From Brachyspira sp. (lineage in GTDB: Bacteria; Spirochaetota; Brachyspiria; Brachyspirales; Brachyspiraceae): a DNA stretch of 43,445 nt. The DNA is taken from assembly GCF_029258575.1 (NCBI RefSeq), contig NZ_JARHYI010000042.1, positions 1 to 43,445 on the forward strand, read 5' to 3'. The position numbers and the translations under genes were made by a program. The first letter of the stretch is position 1, and the number at the start of each line of letters is the position of its first letter. The notes beneath the pieces were generated by a model that was given only the letters and a program-made list of their open reading frames with translations, did no database searches and was not told where the DNA came from. This document shows, in pieces, positions 24,228-40,038 of this stretch.

Positions 24228-25775
24228 ATGTCTAATGATAAAAAAAAGAAAAAAGTAAAAAATACAAAATATTTTCGTAAATCTCCTCCTATACAATTGG
24301 ATACTGGATTTGTCAGTTTAGAGAGATTCATAGCTATAAATGAATATGATGATGGATCTTTTTCTAGAGAATATAATTGTGATATAATAAATAGAAAAGG
24401 AAGAGATGCGGTTATTATAGTACCTTATGCTTATATAGATAATCAAATACATGTTCTTATGATAAGCACATTCAGACCTGTAGTATATTATAGGGAGAAG
24501 GTTATGACGGGAAAAAGTCATGAAGAGATTGATGAGCATATTATGAATTTTTTAGAGTTTCCTGCTGGAATGCTTGAGGAAGATGAGATAAATGAAAAAA
24601 ATCCTAATCAGGGAATAAAAAAGTGTGCTAAGAGAGAGCTTGAAGAAGAGACTGGATATAATGTAGATTTAAAAAATATAAATGTACTTGGATATAGATA
24701 TTATAGTTCTTCAGGTATAATAACTGAGAGAATTAATATTGCCACTTGCGATATAACAGGATTAACTCCTAAAAAAGAGATTAAAACAGACGGATCTGTT
24801 ATGGAGGAAACTATAGAGGCTTTTTTTGTACCTTTTGATAAAGCTATGAGATGGTGTAAAGATGGAGTTATAAAAAATGCTGGTACAGAAATAGGGCTTC
24901 ATAGGCTTTATTTTTCTATACTATATGAGCATCAGAAGAATCATAATATTATACTTCAAAAAAGACTTCATATTCTGCTGAACGAAATAAATTCTCTTAA
25001 AAAAAGTGCTGAGCATTATAATAAATTGATAAGAGAGTTTAAAGCTACTGTTTCCCATGAATTAAGGCATCCTTTTACAGAGATTATGGGGTATCTTAAT
25101 TTACTCAAAAAAAATAATATGTCAGAAGAAAAAAGAGAAGAGTTCTTTAATATAGTTTCAAGAAGCATTAAGAAACTTTATGATACTAATAACAATCTTA
25201 TACAAATAGCTTTAAAAGATGATGAAAGTTCAAAATATGTATCTGAATTCAATATAGAAGAAGAGCTGAACATCATTATAGATGGTTATAAATTCATTTA
25301 TCCAAAAGATATAAATGTAGAAATGAATATAGAAAAAAACTGCATTACATTAATAGGATATCATGAAAGATTCAAATTAATCATGGAAGGAATAATATCG
25401 AATGCATTCAAATTTACTAAGTCTGGAACTATATCAATAAATGTAAGAACTTTAGATACAATAGAGAAAAAAGAATTAGATTTTTCGCCTGATTTATTTA
25501 ATTATCATACAATGAAAAATATAATACCTAATGAAATAGAGATAATAGTAAAAGATACTGGAAAAGGTATAAAGCAAAGTAAATTAAAAAAAATATTTAT
25601 ACCATTTTATCAGGCAGATTCAAGATTTGAAAGAGAGTATGGAGGAATGGGAATTGGTTTATCTGTTGTAAAGGATTTGCTTTATACTATGCAGGGGATT
25701 ATTAATATAGATAGTTCTGAAGGAGCTGGAACTATAGTAAAATTGAGAATGCCTTTTGGAATACCTGCTAAATAG
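24228..25775 (+). CDS. NUDIX hydrolase-histidine kinase fusion protein
   Basis: A 515-residue soluble protein with two full catalytic modules. Residues ~55-235 are a NUDIX domain. The box reads G114-x5-E120, an insertion, then RELEEETGY at 136-144, all key residues of GX5EX7REUXEEXGU being present with 8 extra residues. FRPVVYYREKV and LEFPAGML before it resemble ADP-sugar pyrophosphatases. Residues ~240-270 are a helical linker. The histidine kinase has VSHELRHPFTEIMGY (His277), N-box EGIISNAFKFT (Asn392), G1 VKDTGKGI (Asp443), FIPFYQ, and G2 YGGMGIGLSVV. There is no membrane segment, no receiver domain and no adjacent response regulator. AAAGAGA precedes the ATG. By inference, NUDIX substrate or turnover could set kinase activity. 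Confidence 0.88.
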   Translation: MSNDKKKKKVKNTKYFRKSPPIQLDTGFVSLERFIAINEYDDGSFSREYNCDIINRKGRDAVIIVPYAYIDNQIHVLMISTFRPVVYYREKVMTGKSHEEIDEHIMNFLEFPAGMLEEDEINEKNPNQGIKKCAKRELEEETGYNVDLKNINVLGYRYYSSSGIITERINIATCDITGLTPKKEIKTDGSVMEETIEAFFVPFDKAMRWCKDGVIKNAGTEIGLHRLYFSILYEHQKNHNIILQKRLHILLNEINSLKKSAEHYNKLIREFKATVSHELRHPFTEIMGYLNLLKKNNMSEEKREEFFNIVSRSIKKLYDTNNNLIQIALKDDESSKYVSEFNIEEELNIIIDGYKFIYPKDINVEMNIEKNCITLIGYHERFKLIMEGIISNAFKFTKSGTISINVRTLDTIEKKELDFSPDLFNYHTMKNIIPNEIEIIVKDTGKGIKQSKLKKIFIPFYQADSRFEREYGGMGIGLSVVKDLLYTMQGIINIDSSEGAGTIVKLRMPFGIPAK

Positions 25776-26208: not shown

Positions 26209-26640
26209 TTAATTTCTATATTTAATCATTATTATTTTTCTTCCATTATTTTCAAAATAGAAATCATCTGTGTATAGAGAGATTAGAAATATTCCTCTTC
26301 CGCTATCTTTATAAATATTTTCTTGTGATTCTGTGAGCCCTATCATAGTCATAGTATAATCAAAGCCGTCTCCTTCATCTTCTATAATAACTTTTACCAT
26401 TTCATCATCAATATGAAAATATATATTTACATTTTTATTATAATCGCTTTTATTTCCATGAACTATTGAATTAGTTAAAGCTTCTTCAAAGGCTATTTGA
26501 AATGCATCGCATTCTTTGATACCATTTGTATGTAAAAAATCTAAAAAGTCATTAGATGCTTTAGGTATTAATAATTTATCACTAGGAATTTTCATAAACA
26601 ATCTTTTATCTATTTTGTTTTTATAGTACTCCATTTCCAT
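26209..26640 (-). CDS. RsbW/SpoIIAB-like ATP-binding protein (anti-sigma factor type)
   Basis: A 143-residue GHKL ATPase. The N-box is FEEALTNSIVHGN (Asn57), the G1 box EDEGDGFD (Asp88), and the G2 box DSGRGIFLISLYTDDF (112-127), the standard order and spacing of RsbW-type kinases. Such proteins hold sigma factors or phosphorylate STAS-domain partners, neither of which is visible nearby. It is on the opposite strand to the other two GHKL genes and has its own promoter. Either of two close ATGs (26640, 26634) may be used; no clear ribosome binding site decides. Confidence 0.85.
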   Translation of the reverse strand: MEMEYYKNKIDKRLFMKIPSDKLLIPKASNDFLDFLHTNGIKECDAFQIAFEEALTNSIVHGNKSDYNKNVNIYFHIDDEMVKVIIEDEGDGFDYTMTMIGLTESQENIYKDSGRGIFLISLYTDDFYFENNGRKIIMIKYRN

Positions 26641-28154: not shown

Positions 28155-31100
28155 ATGGAATATAAAATTATATATGAAAATGAAATAGAATTGGATTTTA
28201 TTAATAAACTTATAGATTTAAAATACACATATAGAGGTGATATAAGCGACAGAATGTCTCTTGATGCTAATTTTAGAAATCATTTTGAAAATCTTAATAA
28301 AGTTAAATTAAGTGATAATGAATTTTCTAGATTGAAAGAAGATATTATAACTCCAAATGTATTTTCAGCATCAAAAATATTAAGAGAAAAAAATAATTTA
28401 AAAAGAGATGATGATACCGTTTTGGACTACACTCTTGTAAATACAACCGATTGGTGCAAAAACGAGTATGAAGTAACTAATCAGCTTCGTATGAATACAG
28501 AAAATAGTTATCATCGTTATGATGTTATAATACTTATTAACGGCATACCTCTTGTACAAATAGAATTGAAAACACTTCATATTTCAGCTAAAAAAGCTAT
28601 GGAGCAAATAGTACAATATAAAAAAGATGTAGGCAATGGATTTACTAATTCTTTATTATGTTTTATGCAGATTTTTATTGTAAGTAATAGAAGTAATACT
28701 TATTATTTTGCAAATAACAATAACGAACATTTTAATTTCAATGCTAAAGAAGAATTTACAGATATACATTATCTTGCTGACAAAGATAATAAAAAAATCA
28801 CATATTTACATGACTTTGCTGAGGTTTTTTTATCAAAATGTACATTAGGCGAATTTATAAGTAAATATATAGTTTTGATGGAAACAGATAAAAAATTACT
28901 TCTTATGCGTTATTATCAAATACATGCCGTAAAAGCTATAATAGACTGCATAGAACAAAACAGAGGAAACGGATATATTTGGCATGCCACAGGAAGCGGA
29001 AAAACATTAACATCTTTCAAGGCTTCAACTTTATTAAAAGATAATAGGAATATAGCAAAATGCCTTTTTGTTGTAGATAGAAAAGATTTAGATAAACAAA
29101 CAAGAGATGAATTTAATAAATTTCAAGAGAATTGTGTAGAAGAAAATACAAACACAAAAAAATTAGTAGAAAGACTTATTTCTAATGATATAAAAGACAA
29201 AGTTATAGTAACTACAATACAAAAATTAGTATTAGCACTTGATGAAAATAGTAAAAGAAATAAAAATAAGAAGAAAAATGGAATTCCTACATACAAAGAA
29301 CTTTTATTACCGCTTTCTAATAAAAGAGTTGTTATAATATTTGATGAATGTCATCGTTCACAATTTGGAGAAAATCATAAAACTATTAAAAACTTCTTTC
29401 CAAAAGCACAATTTTTTGGATTTACAGGAACACCTATTTTTGCACAAAATTCTAATTATAAAAAGATAGACGGAACAGAAGGCACTTATGCCACAACAAA
29501 GGATATTTTTGAAAAAGAACTTCATTCATACACAATCACAAATGCTATTGATGATAATAATGTTTTGCGTTTTAATATACAATACTTTGGCCCTAATTAT
29601 GGCAAAGCAGCAAATAAAGATCAGAATAAAACTGCTATTGTAAACAAAATTTTAGAAAGTCATGATAAAGTAACTGTTTATAGAAAATATAATGCCCTAT
29701 TTGCAGTATCATCTATTAATGAAGCTATTGAATACTATGATATTTTTAAATCTCAGCAAAAAGAATATACAGAAAATAATGATGAGTTCAAACCTTTAAA
29801 TATATTCTGTGTATTTTCTCCGCCTGCTGAAGGTAATAAAGATGTTAAACAGCTTCAAGAAGACCTTTGGCAGGAAAAAGAAGATAATAAAAAAGAACCT
29901 GAAAAAAAGAAAGAAGCATTAAGCAATATTATAGATGATTATAATAAACAGTATAATACTAATTATGATATCAATAATTTTGACGGATATTATAAAGATG
30001 TACAGGAGAGAATAAAAAGTCAAAAATACAGCAATGCCGATCTTCCTCATAATAAAAAAATAGATATAACAATAGTAGTTGATATGCTATTAACTGGCTT
30101 TGATTCAAAATATCTAAATACAATATATGTTGATAAGAATTTAAAACATCATGGATTAATACAAGCATTTTCAAGAACCAATAGAATTTTAAATGGATTA
30201 AAACCTTATGGAAATATACTTGATTTTAGATATCAAAAGGATGCTGTTGATGAGGCTATATCACTTTTCTCTGGAGAAGAAAATAGTGAAATGGTAAGAG
30301 AAATATGGATTACACCTGATGCATTTGAAATGACAGAAAAATATCGTAATGCTGTCAATGAATTAAAAAAGTTTATGGAGTCAAAGAACCTTGAATTTAA
30401 GCCAGAAGAAATAAGTAATTTAAAAGGCGATGATGCCAGATATGAATTTATTAATAAGTTTAAAGAGATAAGAAGAATAAGAAATTATATTGAGCAGTAT
30501 GTGAATATAGAAGAAAAAGATGCTGAAAAAATAGAAGAATGTATGTCTAAAGAGATTTTTAGCTCATTTTCTGGTATATATAGAGATGTGGCAGAAAGGC
30601 TAAAAAAACAAAATAAAGCTTATTATGATGAAAATGGAAGGAATGATGAAAGATTTGAACAAACAGATTTTGAATATATACTTTTTGCCAATGATATTAT
30701 AGATTATGATTATATAATGTCGCTCATATCGAAAATGACAGGTCAAACTGTAGAAAAAGTGAAAGCAGCCAAAGAAGATATAATAAAATTATTATCCTCT
30801 ACAACAAGTATGCTTGATGAACAGGAAGATCTCAAAGAATATATAAATCTCCTTCCTGTGAATAAACCTTTAAGCGAAAAAGAATTAAAAGAAAATTATA
30901 ATGAGTTTAAAAAAGAAAAGAATAATGTAGAAATAAATATTATAGCTCAAAGACATAAGATAGATAATGAAAAACTTAAAGCATTTGTATATCACACTTC
31001 AGAGATGCTTATTCTCAACGAGGATTCATTAACGGAACTTGTGGCTCCATTAAATTTAGGCTGGATTGATAGAACAAATAAAGAGAAAGCCATAATGAAA

Positions 31101-31175
31101 GATATTTTGCCATTATTGAAAAAACTTTCTAAAGACAAAATTATCAAAGGATTAAGTGCTTATGAAGAAGAATAA
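28155..31175 (+). CDS. hsdR: Type I restriction enzyme, R (motor/nuclease) subunit
   Basis: Translocates and cuts unmodified DNA as part of the R2M2S complex. The PD-(D/E)xK nuclease has Asp123 in YDVIIL, Glu137-x-Lys139 in QIELK, and the QxxxY motif at 151-155. The SF2 helicase motor has Walker A ATGSGKT (278-284), DECH (397-400) and FTGTP (423-427). Later motor motifs include VDMLLTGFDSKYLNTIYVDK and AFSRTNR. The C-terminal helical part contacts the methylase. At 1006 residues it is full length and intact. Only a weak AAAGG precedes the ATG. It overlaps hsdS slightly. Confidence 0.96.
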   Translation: MEYKIIYENEIELDFINKLIDLKYTYRGDISDRMSLDANFRNHFENLNKVKLSDNEFSRLKEDIITPNVFSASKILREKNNLKRDDDTVLDYTLVNTTDWCKNEYEVTNQLRMNTENSYHRYDVIILINGIPLVQIELKTLHISAKKAMEQIVQYKKDVGNGFTNSLLCFMQIFIVSNRSNTYYFANNNNEHFNFNAKEEFTDIHYLADKDNKKITYLHDFAEVFLSKCTLGEFISKYIVLMETDKKLLLMRYYQIHAVKAIIDCIEQNRGNGYIWHATGSGKTLTSFKASTLLKDNRNIAKCLFVVDRKDLDKQTRDEFNKFQENCVEENTNTKKLVERLISNDIKDKVIVTTIQKLVLALDENSKRNKNKKKNGIPTYKELLLPLSNKRVVIIFDECHRSQFGENHKTIKNFFPKAQFFGFTGTPIFAQNSNYKKIDGTEGTYATTKDIFEKELHSYTITNAIDDNNVLRFNIQYFGPNYGKAANKDQNKTAIVNKILESHDKVTVYRKYNALFAVSSINEAIEYYDIFKSQQKEYTENNDEFKPLNIFCVFSPPAEGNKDVKQLQEDLWQEKEDNKKEPEKKKEALSNIIDDYNKQYNTNYDINNFDGYYKDVQERIKSQKYSNADLPHNKKIDITIVVDMLLTGFDSKYLNTIYVDKNLKHHGLIQAFSRTNRILNGLKPYGNILDFRYQKDAVDEAISLFSGEENSEMVREIWITPDAFEMTEKYRNAVNELKKFMESKNLEFKPEEISNLKGDDARYEFINKFKEIRRIRNYIEQYVNIEEKDAEKIEECMSKEIFSSFSGIYRDVAERLKKQNKAYYDENGRNDERFEQTDFEYILFANDIIDYDYIMSLISKMTGQTVEKVKAAKEDIIKLLSSTTSMLDEQEDLKEYINLLPVNKPLSEKELKENYNEFKKEKNNVEINIIAQRHKIDNEKLKAFVYHTSEMLILNEDSLTELVAPLNLGWIDRTNKEKAIMKDILPLLKKLSKDKIIKGLSAYEEE

Positions 31176-32439
31176 ATTAGTTCCAAAACTTAGATTTCCA
31201 GAATTTAAAAATTCTCCTAGTTGGGATATAAAAAAATTTGATTTTCAATTTTTGCCTACAAATACTTTTTCAAGGTCAGAAATGAATAATAATAAAGGTA
31301 TTGTTAAAAATATTCATTATGGTGATATATTAACAAAATATAATTATATTGTAGATAAAACTTCATTAATACCATTTATTAATGATGATATAAATTTAAA
31401 CAAATTTACTAGAGAAAGTTATTTAAAAAGTGGTGATATTATCATTGCTGATACAGCAGAAGATTTTAGTGCGGGTAAGTCTATAGAAGTTCAAAACATA
31501 AATTGTAAAGTTTTATCTGGGCAACATACTTTTTTATGCCGACCTCAAATAAAATATGCCCCTAAATTTTTAGGATATTACTTAAATTCACCACTATATC
31601 ATAATCATTTAACAAAATTTTTAACAGGTACAAAGGTATACTCGATAACCAAAACAAATATAAAGAATACATTTATTATATATCCTGATAATTTAGAAGA
31701 ACAGCAGAAAATTGCTGATTGTCTAGCTTCTATTGATGAGCTTGTAGATGCAGAGAAAAGAAAATTAGAGGCTTTAAAAAAATATAAAAAAGCCTTAATG
31801 CAGAAACTTTTTCCATCTGAAGATGCTTCAATTCCAGAATTGAGATTTGCAGAATTTAGAATTAATATAGATTTTTTTAATGGTAATTTATTATTTGAAC
31901 AAATTTCAAATAAAAATAATAATTCAGATTTACCTATTCTTGCAATTACTCAAAATAAGGGAGCTATTCCAAGAAATGAAATTAATTACAATGTTGTTGC
32001 TACAGAAAAAAGTATATCTACTTATAAAGTAGTTGAAGTTGGTGATTTTATAATAAGTTTAAGATCTTTTCAAGGAGGGATAGAGTACTCAAATTATAAA
32101 GGGATTTGTAGCCCAGCATACATAATTTTGAGAAAAAAAAATAATAATATATACGAGCCATATTATAAATACTATTTCAAAACGGATAGATATATTATAA
32201 ATTTAAATGCTAACATTGAAGGTATAAGAGATGGTAAAATGATTTCATATAGTCAATTTTCAGATATAAAAATACCATGTCCTACATTAGAAGAACAACA
32301 AAAAATAGCTGATTGTTTGGCTTCTATTGATAGCATTATTGACAGTCAGGTTAAAAGAATAGACAATTTAATTAAACATAAAAAGGCTTTGATGCAGGGG
32401 CTTTTTCCTGATATGGAGAGTATTGAGGATTATGAATAA
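31162..32439 (+). CDS. hsdS: Type I restriction enzyme, S (specificity) subunit
   Basis: Determines the DNA target. Two target-recognition domains (about residues 1-170 and 215-370) are each followed by a conserved helical spacer that begins with the same 15 residues, LEEQQKIADCLASID. The matching DNA, 31693-31737 and 32287-32331, agrees at 40 of 45 positions. The second TRD is followed by KHKKALMQGLFPD, matching KYKKALMQKLFPS after the first. Starts at 31156 (GTG) and 31162 (ATG) both lie inside the end of hsdR; I chose the ATG because AAAGGA is then 10 nt upstream. The protein is ~425 residues and intact. The recognition sequence cannot be read from the protein. Confidence 0.93.
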   Translation: MKKNKLVPKLRFPEFKNSPSWDIKKFDFQFLPTNTFSRSEMNNNKGIVKNIHYGDILTKYNYIVDKTSLIPFINDDINLNKFTRESYLKSGDIIIADTAEDFSAGKSIEVQNINCKVLSGQHTFLCRPQIKYAPKFLGYYLNSPLYHNHLTKFLTGTKVYSITKTNIKNTFIIYPDNLEEQQKIADCLASIDELVDAEKRKLEALKKYKKALMQKLFPSEDASIPELRFAEFRINIDFFNGNLLFEQISNKNNNSDLPILAITQNKGAIPRNEINYNVVATEKSISTYKVVEVGDFIISLRSFQGGIEYSNYKGICSPAYIILRKKNNNIYEPYYKYYFKTDRYIINLNANIEGIRDGKMISYSQFSDIKIPCPTLEEQQKIADCLASIDSIIDSQVKRIDNLIKHKKALMQGLFPDMESIEDYE

Positions 32440-32474
32440 TCAATTCAATAAAAATGTAATTGAGGAGAAAAAAG

Positions 32475-34259
32475 ATGAGTGATGATCAAAAAAAACAGCT
32501 AGGGGCTATTTTATGGGCTATAGCGGATAAATTAAGGGGAGCAATGGACGCTGATGATTTTAAAGATTATATGCTTTCTTTTTTGTTCTTAAAATATTTG
32601 TCTGATAGATATGAAGAAGCTGTAAAATTGATGCTTGGAAAAGATTATAATGAAATTGAAAATGAAGCTATAAAAAATAATACTGACAGCTATATAGAAG
32701 AGTTAAAAAAAATTATAGTTAAACATTCTAAAACTGTAGCATTATCAAAATTGAATTTAAATGAGTATGAAAAAGATAAAGAAAAAATAAAAAAAGCTAG
32801 AGAAAATTGGATTGATGATTATACTAAAATGCTTTCATCAAATACTTTACAGCCTCTTATTTTATGGTATATTAAAAATTTAGATAATATAGATTTATTT
32901 GAAAAAGGAATCAGAAGAAAAATACATTATGTGATAAAGCCTCAATATTTATGGAGAAATATATATGAATTAGCAAAAACTCAAAATGAAGAGCTTTTAA
33001 ATACATTGGTAAGCGGTTTTAAACATATTGAAAACGAATCTTTTGAAAGTACATTCAGCGGATTATTTTCTGAAATAAATCTATATTCTGAAAAACTAGG
33101 AAGAAGTTATACAGAAAGAAATAAACTCATAAGTTCTATTATAACAGAAATTGCAGAAGGTATTTCACAATTTTCAAATGATACTGATATTTTGGGAGAT
33201 GCTTATGAATATTTGATATCTCAATTTGCTGCAGGTTCTGGAAAAAAGGCAGGCGAGTTCTATACACCTCAGCCTGTTTCTACAATTCTATCCCGTATTG
33301 TGGTGCTTGATTGTCAGGATCCAAGTAAAGGAAATAAAAGTAAAATAAATAATATTTTTGATTTTGCATGCGGTTCTGGCTCTTTGCTTATAAATGTTAG
33401 AAAACAGTTTGGAAAAGATAATTTCGGACAGATATACGGACAAGAAAAAAATATAACTACTTATAACCTTGCAAGAATGAATATGATTTTGCATGGTGTA
33501 AAAGATTCCGAGTTTACAATTTTTCATGGTGATTCATTATTAAATGAATGGAATATTTTAAGTGAGATGAATCCTGCCAAAAAAATGTTATTTGATGTAA
33601 TAGTAGCAAATCCTCCTTTCAGTTATAGATGGCAGCCTAAAGAGGATATGGAAAATGATTTTAGATTTAAAGATTATGGATTAGCCCCTAAATCAGCAGC
33701 AGATTTTGCTTTTTTACTTCATGGATTTCATTTTTTAAGTAATGAAGGTACTATGGCAATTATTCTTCCTCATGGAGTATTATTTAGAGGAGGCTCTGAA
33801 GAAAAAATTAGGACTAAACTTCTGCAAGATGGAAATATTGATGCTGTTATAGGTTTGCCTTCCAATCTTTTTGCTTTTACAGGAATACCAGTTTGCATAT
33901 TGGTTCTTAAAAAATGTAAAAAATTTGATGATGTGCTTATCATAAATGCAAGCAATGAATTTGAAAAAGGAAAACGCCAGAATATACTTTTAGATAAGCA
34001 TATTAATAAAATAGTTGACACATATCAGTACAGAAAAGAAGATGATAAAAAATATTCACGCAGAGTATCTATGAAAGAAATAGAAAAAAATGGATATAAT
34101 CTTAATATTTCAAGATATGTAAATACTTCAGATGAAGAAGAAATAATAAATATAGATGAAGTTATGAAAGAGCTTCAAGATATAGAAACCGAAATAAAAA
34201 GTGCAAAGTCTAAACATAATAGTTTTTTAAAAGAATTGGGACTTAAAGAACTTCCATAA
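32475..34259 (+). CDS. hsdM: Type I restriction enzyme, M (adenine methyltransferase) subunit
   Basis: Methylates adenine in the target with S-adenosylmethionine. The N-terminal helical domain starts KKQLGAILWAIADKLRGAMD. The conserved AAGSGKKAGEFYTPQPVS block precedes the catalytic domain. Motif I is FDFACGSGSLL (Cys-Gly-Ser-Gly near residue 297) and motif IV is NPPF at 379-382. The frame is open further upstream from a TTG at 32460, but the ATG at 32475 has GAGGAGAAA directly before it and is clearly the start, giving 594 residues. It follows hsdS by 35 nt. The gene order R-S-M is less common than R-M-S. Confidence 0.96.
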   Translation: MSDDQKKQLGAILWAIADKLRGAMDADDFKDYMLSFLFLKYLSDRYEEAVKLMLGKDYNEIENEAIKNNTDSYIEELKKIIVKHSKTVALSKLNLNEYEKDKEKIKKARENWIDDYTKMLSSNTLQPLILWYIKNLDNIDLFEKGIRRKIHYVIKPQYLWRNIYELAKTQNEELLNTLVSGFKHIENESFESTFSGLFSEINLYSEKLGRSYTERNKLISSIITEIAEGISQFSNDTDILGDAYEYLISQFAAGSGKKAGEFYTPQPVSTILSRIVVLDCQDPSKGNKSKINNIFDFACGSGSLLINVRKQFGKDNFGQIYGQEKNITTYNLARMNMILHGVKDSEFTIFHGDSLLNEWNILSEMNPAKKMLFDVIVANPPFSYRWQPKEDMENDFRFKDYGLAPKSAADFAFLLHGFHFLSNEGTMAIILPHGVLFRGGSEEKIRTKLLQDGNIDAVIGLPSNLFAFTGIPVCILVLKKCKKFDDVLIINASNEFEKGKRQNILLDKHINKIVDTYQYRKEDDKKYSRRVSMKEIEKNGYNLNISRYVNTSDEEEIINIDEVMKELQDIETEIKSAKSKHNSFLKELGLKELP

Positions 34260-36743: not shown

Positions 36744-37826
36744 ATGAACAAAAAAATAATATTATGTTTTTTATTTATTGTTTCTATATTTGTGTTTTCA
36801 TGCAATAAAAATACAAATACTGATGCAAACTCTTTTGAAATAGCTATATTAATAGATTTAGGTCCTATTGATGATAAATCTTTTAATCAGGGTTCTTGGG
36901 AAGGTGCTAAGCAATATGCGGAGAATCATAATGTGAGTTATAAATATTATAGAGTACCTGATAAAGATATAGATTCTTATTTGAATACAATAGATCTTGC
37001 AGTTAAAGGCGGTGCCAAACTTATAGTAACACCAGGCTATATGTTTGAACCTGCTATTTATAAAGCACAGGATATATATACAAATGTTCATTTTATATTG
37101 ATAGACGGAGAGCCTCAGGACGGTACTGGTAGCAACTATAAAACATCTCCGAATACTTCTGCTATTCTTTATGCTGAAGAGGAAGCTGGATTTTTGGCAG
37201 GTTATTCTATAGTAAAAGAAGGTTATACTAATTTGGGATTTATTGGAGGAGTGGCTCATCCTGCAGTAGTGAGATTTGGATATGGTTTTGTGCAGGGAGC
37301 AGATTATGCTGCAGTTGAATTAAGACTTCCTAAAAATTCCATTAATATGAAATATACTTATATAGGAAATTATGATCCTACTCCTGAAAATCAAACTCTT
37401 GCAGCTTCTTGGTATCAAAGTGGGGTGCAGGTAATATTTGCTGCTGCTGGTGCTGCTGGTAATTCTGTTATGAGTGCTGCTGGAAGTAATAACGGTTTAG
37501 TTATAGGTGTAGATGTTGATCAGAGCTTTGAATCCCCTACTGTTATAACTTCTGCTATTAAGATGATAAGAGAATCAGTTTATAATTCTGTTGCTTCTTT
37601 CTATAATGGTACTTTTAATGGTGGAAAAACTATTATATTAGATGCTCAAGTTAATGGAATCGGACTTCCTATGTCTGCTTCAAAGTTTAAAGTTTTTAAT
37701 AAAGATGATTATGATTTTATATATAACACTCTGATAAATAAAACTATTAAAATTTATAAAGATACTGATGCTGCATCTGTAGAGAATCTTTCTTTAAAAG
37801 TAGTAAAAATTGATTATGTTAAGTAA
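36744..37826 (+). CDS. BMP/PnrA-type nucleoside-binding lipoprotein, copy 1
   Basis: A solute-binding lipoprotein of the Bmp/Med/PnrA family, whose characterised members (for example Treponema PnrA) bind purine nucleosides. The lipobox FVFSC has Cys20. The mature part starts FEIAILIDLGPIDDKSFNQG, the family signature. The GFLAGYSIVKEGYTNLGFIG and GVQVIFAAAGAAGNSV blocks follow, then IGVDVDQS and TVITSAIKM. The length of 360 residues is normal. TTAGGATG precedes the ATG. It is the first of three tandem copies feeding the downstream ATPase and permeases. Confidence 0.92.
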   Translation: MNKKIILCFLFIVSIFVFSCNKNTNTDANSFEIAILIDLGPIDDKSFNQGSWEGAKQYAENHNVSYKYYRVPDKDIDSYLNTIDLAVKGGAKLIVTPGYMFEPAIYKAQDIYTNVHFILIDGEPQDGTGSNYKTSPNTSAILYAEEEAGFLAGYSIVKEGYTNLGFIGGVAHPAVVRFGYGFVQGADYAAVELRLPKNSINMKYTYIGNYDPTPENQTLAASWYQSGVQVIFAAAGAAGNSVMSAAGSNNGLVIGVDVDQSFESPTVITSAIKMIRESVYNSVASFYNGTFNGGKTIILDAQVNGIGLPMSASKFKVFNKDDYDFIYNTLINKTIKIYKDTDAASVENLSLKVVKIDYVK

Positions 37827-37858
37827 ATATATATTAATTTAATTTATAGAGGATAATA

Positions 37859-38932
37859 ATGAAAAAATATTTAATATTTATAATGGTTATATTTTCTTTT
37901 GTTTTTGCAGTATCATGTTCGTTTAGAAAAAAAGGTGAAGTTTATGAAATAGCTTTAATTACAGAAGGTGAAATAGATGATAAATCATATAATCAGGGAG
38001 CTTGGGAAGGTTTACTTCAATATGCTGATAATAATGATAAAACATATAAATATTATCGGGCTTCAGCTAAAACTACAGAATCTTATATTGAAGTTATAGA
38101 TTTAGCTGTTTATAATGGAGCTAAATTGATAATAACACCTAATTATTTATTTGAAACAGCAGTATACAAAGCTCAAGATAAATATCCTAAAGTAACTTTT
38201 ATAATTATAGATGGCATACCTCAGGACGGAACTTATTCTGATTCAAGAATAGAAAATAATACATATTCTATTTTATATGCAGAAGAGCAGGCTGGATTTT
38301 TGGCTGGATATGCTATAACTAAAGAAGGATATACCAATTTGGGAGTTATGGGCGGTATGGAAGTTCCTCCTGTTTTAAGATTTGGATATGGTTTTTTGCA
38401 GGGTGTTAATTATGCTGCTAAAGAAATGAATTTATCTCCTAGAGATGTAGAAGTTAATTATACATATGTAAATAGTTTTGAAGCTTCTTATAAAAGTAAA
38501 GTACTTGCCGATTCTTGGTATAAAAGCGGAGTTCAGGTAATATTTGCTCCTGCTGGAGGTGTAGTAAATTCTGTTATAGATTCTGCTGAAGAAAATAATG
38601 GCTGGGTTATAGGCGTTGATGTGGATCAAAGTTTTGAATCTCCTACTGTTATTACTTCTGCTATAAAAAAAATAAAAGAGTCAGTTTATAATGCTGTTGA
38701 TTCTTTTTATAATGGAAGTTTTGTAGGAGGAAAAAAGATAGTTTTAGATGTTAAAGTTAATGGGGTAGGTCTTACTATTAGGACTTCTCATTTTCAGCAA
38801 TTTACAGAGAATGATTATAATATTGTATATCAAAAACTTGTAGACGGAAGTATTACGGTTTTGAAAGATACCGATGTCAGATCTTTAGGGGATCTTCCTT
38901 TAGATATAGTAAAAGTTAATTATATAAAATAA
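37859..38932 (+). CDS. BMP/PnrA-type nucleoside-binding lipoprotein, copy 2
   Basis: 357 residues with a lipobox ending FAVSC (Cys20) and the family blocks ITEGEIDDKSYNQGAWEG, GFLAGYAITKEGYTNLGVMG, GVQVIFAPAGGVVNSV and IGVDVDQSFESPTVITSA. It is the most divergent of the three: the segment YVNSFEASYKSKVLADSWYK replaces the PTPENQTLAASWYQ / ATPENQTLATSWYQ form of copies 1 and 3. The ligand pocket may therefore differ. AGAGGA precedes the ATG, 32 nt after copy 1. Confidence 0.92.
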   Translation: MKKYLIFIMVIFSFVFAVSCSFRKKGEVYEIALITEGEIDDKSYNQGAWEGLLQYADNNDKTYKYYRASAKTTESYIEVIDLAVYNGAKLIITPNYLFETAVYKAQDKYPKVTFIIIDGIPQDGTYSDSRIENNTYSILYAEEQAGFLAGYAITKEGYTNLGVMGGMEVPPVLRFGYGFLQGVNYAAKEMNLSPRDVEVNYTYVNSFEASYKSKVLADSWYKSGVQVIFAPAGGVVNSVIDSAEENNGWVIGVDVDQSFESPTVITSAIKKIKESVYNAVDSFYNGSFVGGKKIVLDVKVNGVGLTIRTSHFQQFTENDYNIVYQKLVDGSITVLKDTDVRSLGDLPLDIVKVNYIK

Positions 38933-38961
38933 ATTGTAAATAAAAAATAGGAGAAAACAAT

Positions 38962-40038
38962 ATGAAAAAAATTATTATTTCGATTATCTCTATAGTCAGT
39001 ATTATTATGATGATTTCATGCGGCGGAATGAAAAAATCTAGCGGATATGAATTAGCATTAATTACAGATGTTGGTACTATAGATGACAGATCTTTCAATC
39101 AGGGTTCTTGGGAAGGATTAACTAAATATGCTGAGGAGAATGGTATATCCCATAAATATTATCAGCCTGCTCAAAAAACTACAGATGCATATGTGGATGC
39201 TATAGATTTAGCTGTATCTGCAGGAGCTAAATTGATAGTAACTCCGGGATTTTTATTTGAACCTGCTGTTTATAAATCTCAGGACATTCACACTAATGTA
39301 AGTTTTGTACTTTTAGACGGAATTCCTCAAGACGGAAATTATACTAATTCTAAAATAGAAAAAAATGTTTATTCTGCACTTTATGCTGAAGAACAGGCTG
39401 GATTTTTGGCTGGTTATGCTATAGTAAAAGAAGGTTATACTAATTTAGGAGTTATGGGTGGTATAGCTGTGCCTCCAGTTATAAGATTCGGATATGGATT
39501 TATACAGGGAGCAGAATATGCTGCTGAAGAAATTGGATTAGAAGTTGGAACAATTAAAATAAATTATACTTATGTAGGCAATTTTAATGCTACTCCTGAA
39601 AATCAAACACTTGCTACTTCTTGGTATCAAAGTGGAGTACAAGTAATATTTGCTCCTGCAGGAGGTGCTGGAAACTCTGCTATGAGTGCTGCTGAACAGA
39701 ATAATGGTTGGGTTATAGGAGTTGATATAGATCAAAGTTCTGAATCTCCTACTGTTATTACTTCTGCTATGAAAATGCTTGGAGAATCAGTTTATAATGC
39801 AATAGATAATTTTTATAATAATAGATTTCCAGGAGGACAGTCTGTAATACTTGATGCTAAAGTTAATGGTATAGGACTTCCTATGAAAACTTCTAAATTC
39901 AAAGTATTCACTCAAAGTGATTATGATGCCATATATAAAAAATTAGTAGATGATCAGGTAAAAGTTCTTACTGATAAAGAAGTTAATGGTATTAATCAAT
40001 TACCTATGAATATAGTTAAAGTTAATTTTATACAATAA
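38962..40038 (+). CDS. BMP/PnrA-type nucleoside-binding lipoprotein, copy 3
   Basis: 358 residues; the lipobox ends MMISC (Cys20). Landmarks are ITDVGTIDDRSFNQGSWEG, GFLAGYAIVKEGYTNLGVMG, GVQVIFAPAGGAGNSAMSAA and IGVDIDQSSESPTVITSAM. It shares with copy 1 the ATPENQTLATSWYQ segment and with copy 2 several N-terminal features. A strong TAGGAGAA ribosome binding site precedes the ATG. A terminator-like hairpin directly follows the gene, so the three binding-protein genes may be expressed above the transporter core. Confidence 0.92.
   Translation: MKKIIISIISIVSIIMMISCGGMKKSSGYELALITDVGTIDDRSFNQGSWEGLTKYAEENGISHKYYQPAQKTTDAYVDAIDLAVSAGAKLIVTPGFLFEPAVYKSQDIHTNVSFVLLDGIPQDGNYTNSKIEKNVYSALYAEEQAGFLAGYAIVKEGYTNLGVMGGIAVPPVIRFGYGFIQGAEYAAEEIGLEVGTIKINYTYVGNFNATPENQTLATSWYQSGVQVIFAPAGGAGNSAMSAAEQNNGWVIGVDIDQSSESPTVITSAMKMLGESVYNAIDNFYNNRFPGGQSVILDAKVNGIGLPMKTSKFKVFTQSDYDAIYKKLVDDQVKVLTDKEVNGINQLPMNIVKVNFIQ

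Follow-up and report, generated by a model that had tools for sequence, protein, structure and literature searches.

A Nudix–histidine kinase fusion conserved across the Brachyspirales, a candidate metabolite-sensing two-component kinase

The window analyzed here, a contiguous stretch of 43,445 nucleotides from a Brachyspira genome, carries a gene that joins a Nudix domain to a histidine kinase (Table 1). As the preliminary description had proposed, one intact frame encodes both halves, and all three Pfam domains score above their cut-offs: NUDIX (PF00293, residues 109–206) with 27.4 bits against 21.1, HisKA (residues 269–330) with 35.5 against 26.9, and HATPase_c (residues 380–510) with 66.9 against 26.4, in the order Nudix (approximately residues 26–225), helical linker, HisKA and HATPase_c. 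The residues singled out in that description (G114, E120, R136–G143, H277, N392, D443 and G472–G477) were all found, and a stop-free frame of 515 codons has a chance probability of about 3e-20 at this base composition. We describe the protein as soluble and cytosolic because no 19-residue segment reaches membrane-like hydrophobicity (the highest Kyte–Doolittle mean is 1.39), in agreement with the earlier statement that it has no membrane segment. It had also been stated that there is no PAS or other usual sensor and no receiver gene nearby, and indeed Pfam shows no sensor domain besides Nudix, and no receiver domain was detected anywhere on the 43-kb contig. Promoter and terminator scans gave results no better than chance.

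Table 1. Features of the fusion gene and its surroundings; positions are those of the window, residue numbers those of the fusion protein
Feature	Position	Strand	Basis
NUDIX-HisKA-HATPase_c fusion protein, 515 aa from ATG	24228..25775	+	Intact ORF; orthologues in 31/31 Brachyspirales genomes
ADPRase-type Nudix region, residues 26–225, including N-terminal beta region	24303..24902	+	TIGR00052; 1viq alignment
Nudix box, G114–G143, GMLEEDE + 8-residue insertion + RELEEETG	24567..24656	+	Key residues invariant in 15 fusions
DGSVMEE, residues 188–194, inferred equivalent of loop L9 with catalytic-base/metal glutamate	24789..24809	+	Invariance
Helical linker, residues 226–265, last Nudix helix to DHp domain	24903..25022	+	Least conserved part
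HisKA/DHp, residues 269–330, phospho-acceptor H277 in HELRHP	25032..25217	+	Pfam; H277, E278, H281 and P282 invariant
HATPase_c, residues 380–510, N box N392, G1 D443, G2 GGMGIG	25365..25757	+	Pfam; invariance
PDLFNYH insert, residues 421–427, between N and G1 boxes	25488..25508	+	Invariant
RsbW-like HATPase_c_2 protein, 163 aa	23702..24193	+	PF13581, E 5.9e-14; ends 34 bases before kinase
Second RsbW-like HATPase_c_2 gene	26209..26640	-	
Type I restriction-modification island (HsdR, specificity subunit, HsdM)	28155..34259	+	
Three tandem Bmp/PnrA-like nucleoside-binding lipoprotein-type genes	36744..40038	+	

Of the 31 Brachyspirales genomes in our set, 26 belong to the same genus, three to sister genera and two to a second family, and all carry the full-length fusion, at identities from 95% down to 41%. 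It was found in none of 362 other sampled Spirochaetota, 17 of which match the Nudix part, always in short frames no longer than 254 residues, and in none of 395 genomes of a Bacteroidota-centered sample, whose 101 matches were Nudix proteins with frame lengths up to 306 residues; these counts cover the two samples, and Nudix–kinase fusions in other phyla are possible. A scan of genome contigs returned only Brachyspira fusions plus one Bacteroidales match to the kinase part alone, and searches of plasmid and viral collections, which detect fairly close relatives only, gave no relatives of the Nudix part. The same full-length frame, never split and without an internal stop, recurs in the 31 genomes, several of them single-contig assemblies, and a frameshift or misassembly joining two genes, the error that the preliminary description had considered, is thereby refuted. 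Identity declines in step in the two halves of the protein, as expected of a single inherited unit, and the simplest reading is a single fusion event at or before the base of the Brachyspirales, retained since. Between close species, dN is approximately 0.02–0.07 and dS approximately 0.9–1.5 in every domain, which indicates strong purifying selection on both halves. The conservation counts given below refer to 15 diverse fusions, down to 41% identity.

The Nudix half resembles the ADP-ribose pyrophosphatases. The TIGR00052 model (YffH/AdpP) spans residues 26–225 with an E value of 3.8e-17, covering model positions 13–184 of 188, at a score of 62.5 bits that lies below the curated cut-off of 79.55. 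Among solved structures, the matches are to ADP-ribose pyrophosphatases and to NudK. When a profile built from the fused Nudix domains is aligned with the ADP-ribose pyrophosphatase chain 1viq, the alignment covers residues 24–203, N-terminal beta region included, and the last-helix element GxIxNA of the fusions falls on GKIDNAAS of 1viq. The fusion therefore shares with the YffH–AdpP/ADPRase family (E. coli ADPRase, NudK, Bd-NDPSase) the whole-domain alignment, the GX5E and REx2EEx-G elements of the box, the loop-L9 glutamates and GxIxNA at the last helix, but differs from it in carrying a histidine kinase, in a box insertion of 5–9 residues, in Ser162 (genus Brachyspira) and in the sub-cut-off score. 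Unlike NudK, it also lacks the Asp-X-Lys motif that NudK and NDPSase have at the start of helix alpha3, the position being N217-A-G here, DGK in NudK, and NAV, NAA or NGA in the outgroups. Because this motif is absent, we assign the Nudix part to the ADPRase type rather than to the GDP-mannose/NDP-sugar (NudK) type, which narrows the nucleotide-sugar or ADP-ribose-like class proposed earlier to its ADP-ribose side. The proline of the SPG element after the box, a marker of ADPRases, is replaced by Ser162 in the genus Brachyspira and is a proline in five outgroup proteins. Despite this substitution, the missing Asp-X-Lys motif and the ADPRase-like GxIxNA favor, though not with certainty, ADP-ribose or a related ADP-sugar as the ligand. 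For the three other Nudix proteins detected in the genome, the best-scoring models are those of NAD diphosphatase or IPP isomerase, with scores that fall far short of the cut-off in every case; the fusion thus appears to carry the only ADPRase-type Nudix domain detected there, although a divergent one could be missed.

All eight of the positions G114, R136, E137, E140, E141, G143, E193 and E194 are invariant, against a background of 41 of 200; because the sequences are related, the probability computed for this, 2e-6, serves as a description only. The metal-binding glutamates of ADPRases and their loop-L9 glutamate are present (E137, E140, E141, E193 and E194), and around the latter D188, G189, S190 and M192 are likewise invariant. 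In Bd-NDPSase, the box glutamates and one loop-L9 glutamate bind magnesium (PMC4629899). The invariance of these metal residues and of the loop-L9 glutamates suggests that catalysis has been selected for, and that the domain is probably catalytically competent. Every signature residue of the GX5EX7REUXEEXGU box is there, with eight extra residues between E120 and R136 and with the first glutamate replaced by aspartate in three outgroup proteins. Of the catalytic residues listed in the preliminary description, those of the metal site are intact; E120 is set apart by this replacement from the invariant glutamates and was rejected as a key catalytic residue. The insertion makes the distance from G114 to R136 22 residues versus 14 in the canonical box. 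The preliminary description had suggested that sensing and catalysis might be uncoupled at this site. We reject this idea, as the insertion varies in length (most genera have 8 residues, one has 9, and the second family has 5) and drifts in sequence while the catalytic residues are all invariant; it behaves like a tolerated loop. A role in antiphage defense was considered and dropped, the single PADLOC match, located at the Nudix box, being to an unnamed candidate at E 0.001.

These observations bear on whether the Nudix fold might serve as an NrtR-like receptor that hardly turns over its ligand, or that binds another one, such that hydrolysis is incidental or absent. Nudix receptors do exist, the known Nudix sensors being DNA-binding regulators such as NrtR, for which ADP-ribose is an established ligand (PMC9503650), and both the serine in place of the marker proline in Brachyspira and the insertion in the box would fit such a role. 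Yet neither the catalytic residues of the box nor the loop-L9 glutamates vary across two families, which is unlikely if binding alone had been selected, and we consider a pure receptor a serious but minority possibility. The fusion would share with NrtR the use of a Nudix fold as regulatory input, but unlike these Nudix–HTH one-component regulators it has a histidine kinase as its output and an intact box, and its C-terminus is a HATPase_c domain, with no Pfam match to a DNA-binding HTH like that at the C-terminus of NrtR.

In the kinase half, H277, N392, D443 and the residues of the glycine boxes are invariant across the 15 fusions. With HisKA kinases in general (closest solved chain 7z8n; PnpS, WalK and PhoR models) the protein shares the H, N, G1 and G2 boxes and above-cut-off HisKA and HATPase_c matches, but unlike 7z8n and the PnpS-, WalK- and PhoR-type kinases it is cytosolic, has a Nudix input, carries an ExxH motif and contains the PDLFNYH insert. 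Phosphatase motifs of HisKA kinases have threonine or asparagine four residues after the phospho-acceptor histidine. The fusions instead read E278-L-R/K/N-H281 (HELxHP), with H281 invariant in all 15, and a histidine at the ExxT/N position points to a weak phosphatase, so that the protein is probably kinase-biased and poor at dephosphorylating its partner. The PDLFNYH insert is absent from aligned solved kinases, and a degenerate DNA search of 387 Spirochaetota found it in all 31 Brachyspirales and in three places elsewhere; two of these hits have PDFFNYH instead, and the remaining one falls in a non-kinase frame of roughly 50 residues. The insert could be used as an order-specific fingerprint of the Brachyspirales.

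Between the two halves, only two of the 40 linker positions are invariant, and the length of the linker is nearly constant across the fusions. An AlphaFold2 model built from 11 close Brachyspira sequences (pLDDT 44.7, pTM 0.30) is too poor for structural claims; the linker is helical in this low-confidence model, with a pLDDT of about 65 at best. The poor conservation of the linker would be expected if an enzyme detoxifying ADP-ribose and an ordinary kinase had been joined in cis mainly to aid dimerization or expression, without exchanging any signal, but the two have never been split in 31 genomes and the spacing between them hardly changes, which makes such a fusion of convenience very improbable.

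The RsbW-like gene that precedes the kinase gene (Table 1) is likely co-transcribed with it. In 28 of 29 Brachyspiraceae genomes this gene is the one directly preceding the fusion, at identities of 40–93%, unlike most other genes around the fusion, which differ between clades, and it was undetected in the 29th, the 2.0-Mb genome G010. In the second family, the nearest RsbW-like homologue is the C-terminal domain of an unlinked 7TMR-DISM-PAS protein. Proteins of this kind (L099, 3199–5508, minus strand; L100, 1193–3415, plus strand) may be a membrane-sensor version of an RsbW-type kinase. The second RsbW-like gene of the window, just downstream of the kinase, is present there only in close relatives of the window's genome. 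Three convergent genes follow the kinase in one sister genus and in part of Brachyspira and are missing there in the clade of the window; at L076 (10150–11180, minus strand) one of them encodes an ECF sigma factor and another a protein that weakly matches zf-HC2 (anti-sigma-type), and L039–L044 and L079 have the same three-gene neighborhood by size and strand.

The genome encodes 14 receiver domains. One of these belongs to a REC-SpoIIE protein that is unlinked to the kinase and has orthologues in all 31 Brachyspirales genomes. There are also five matches to STAS, which include at least two short proteins that stand alone and contain DSSG or SSSG. With the RsbW-like gene added, all the components of a partner-switching circuit are represented. 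In Bacillus cereus, such a circuit runs from the kinase RsbK via the REC-PP2C protein RsbY to RsbV and RsbW, RsbK itself being a hybrid kinase that sits in the membrane and includes a receiver domain (PMC4574943). The likeness to this sigma-B circuit lies in the genes present, in that a histidine kinase, a REC-PP2C protein, STAS proteins and an RsbW-like protein are all encoded; here, the kinase is a soluble Nudix kinase, its gene is adjacent to that of the RsbW-like protein, and REC-SpoIIE is unlinked. This analogy, the conserved RsbW-like neighbor and the presence of REC-SpoIIE in all genomes make REC-SpoIIE our tentative candidate for the phosphotransfer partner, an assignment that we put forward with low confidence. 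Other orphan receivers are also encoded, and one of them could be the partner instead. Against an RsbW-type output stand the absence of the RsbW-like gene from G010 and the situation in the second family, where the closest homologue forms part of a 7TM protein encoded elsewhere. We note that the REC-SpoIIE gene follows an FtsW/RodA-like gene (identified by eye) in both families (L091, 146–2625, plus strand; L101, 2776–5287, minus strand; L102, 2836–5542, minus strand), which possibly links it to cell-wall growth or division.

The lack of a receiver gene linked to the fusion also fits a reversed logic, in which the kinase half senses something else, such as the energy state or a partner protein, and by its phosphorylation or conformation turns the Nudix hydrolase on or off, so that the protein would be a regulated ADP-ribose pyrophosphatase. 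The full Nudix catalytic set is retained, the domain is the only one of its type detected in the genome, and the ExxH motif suggests atypical dealings with a receiver. On the other hand, the Nudix domain stands N-terminal to the DHp domain, which is the usual input position, with a helical linker between the two; the kinase has no further sensor domain that could supply its input, and the DHp and ATPase motifs are fully retained. Weighing these points, we regard control of the hydrolase by the kinase as improbable.

A metabolite-sensing role is then the most economical reading of the fusion. Ser162 in place of the marker proline, the missed TIGR00052 cut-off and the want of a linked receiver gene count against it, and we hold it an even call whether the Nudix domain is an input that both binds an ADP-ribose-like ligand and is hydrolytically competent. 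In the mechanism that we propose, the protein would be a cytosolic sensor histidine kinase whose input is a dimeric ADPRase-type Nudix domain, the dimerization being taken from homologues. ADPRase-type Nudix enzymes, including Bd-NDPSase, form a domain-swapped dimer whose two subunits both contribute to every ligand site (PMC4629899), and with this usual dimer the kinase dimer would have two ligand sites at the subunit interface. Binding of the ligand at these two sites (ADP-ribose in the first place, other ADP- or NDP-sugars in the second) would shift the last Nudix helix, which, with a helix continuity likewise taken from homologues, would continue through the 40-residue linker into the DHp helices, and their movement would switch autophosphorylation at H277. 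Hydrolysis of the ligand would end the signal, making this a self-terminating sensor. The phosphoryl group would pass to a receiver encoded elsewhere, with the orphan REC-SpoIIE regulator as the best candidate. By removing phosphate from a STAS protein, this regulator would in turn control the RsbW-like protein encoded next to the kinase. Taken as a whole, namely that an active ADP-ribose pyrophosphatase serves as the receptor and also ends the signal, so that NAD/ADP-ribose turnover is coupled to serine partner switching in a new sensor class fixed across the Brachyspirales, this scheme is a speculative proposal that we consider possible but rather unlikely to hold in every part.

The preliminary description did not recognize the fusion as a described signaling class, and in the open-access literature (subscription papers and preprints being outside the scope of the search) we likewise found no description of a Nudix–histidine kinase fusion, which we therefore present as a two-component kinase with a new input domain. 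To our knowledge, no bacterial histidine kinase that directly senses ADP-ribose or nucleotide sugars has been described. The order-wide distribution, the RsbW-like partner gene, the ExxH motif and the PDLFNYH insert were not part of that earlier account. If the proposed mechanism is correct, NAD turnover would be tied to signaling by a receptor that destroys its own ligand, and our data suggest that in these gut bacteria of the order Brachyspirales a nucleotide metabolite acts as the direct input of a phosphorylation pathway. The genus Brachyspira includes gut pathogens of swine and poultry, whose signaling has been little studied; the fusion is universal in this genus and is one of only five HisKA kinases encoded in the genome, and, as it is a single soluble protein, the question of sensing can be addressed with purified material.

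Further along the window lie two other groups of genes. The type I restriction-modification island (Table 1) is absent at the same place in several relatives (L026, L030 and L080); R and S genes stand there in L035, and other genes in L025. Two of the three tandem Bmp/PnrA-like genes are 61% identical, and the trio is preceded by two nucleoside phosphorylase genes and a DeoC-type aldolase gene, the whole forming a nucleoside uptake and breakdown cluster.
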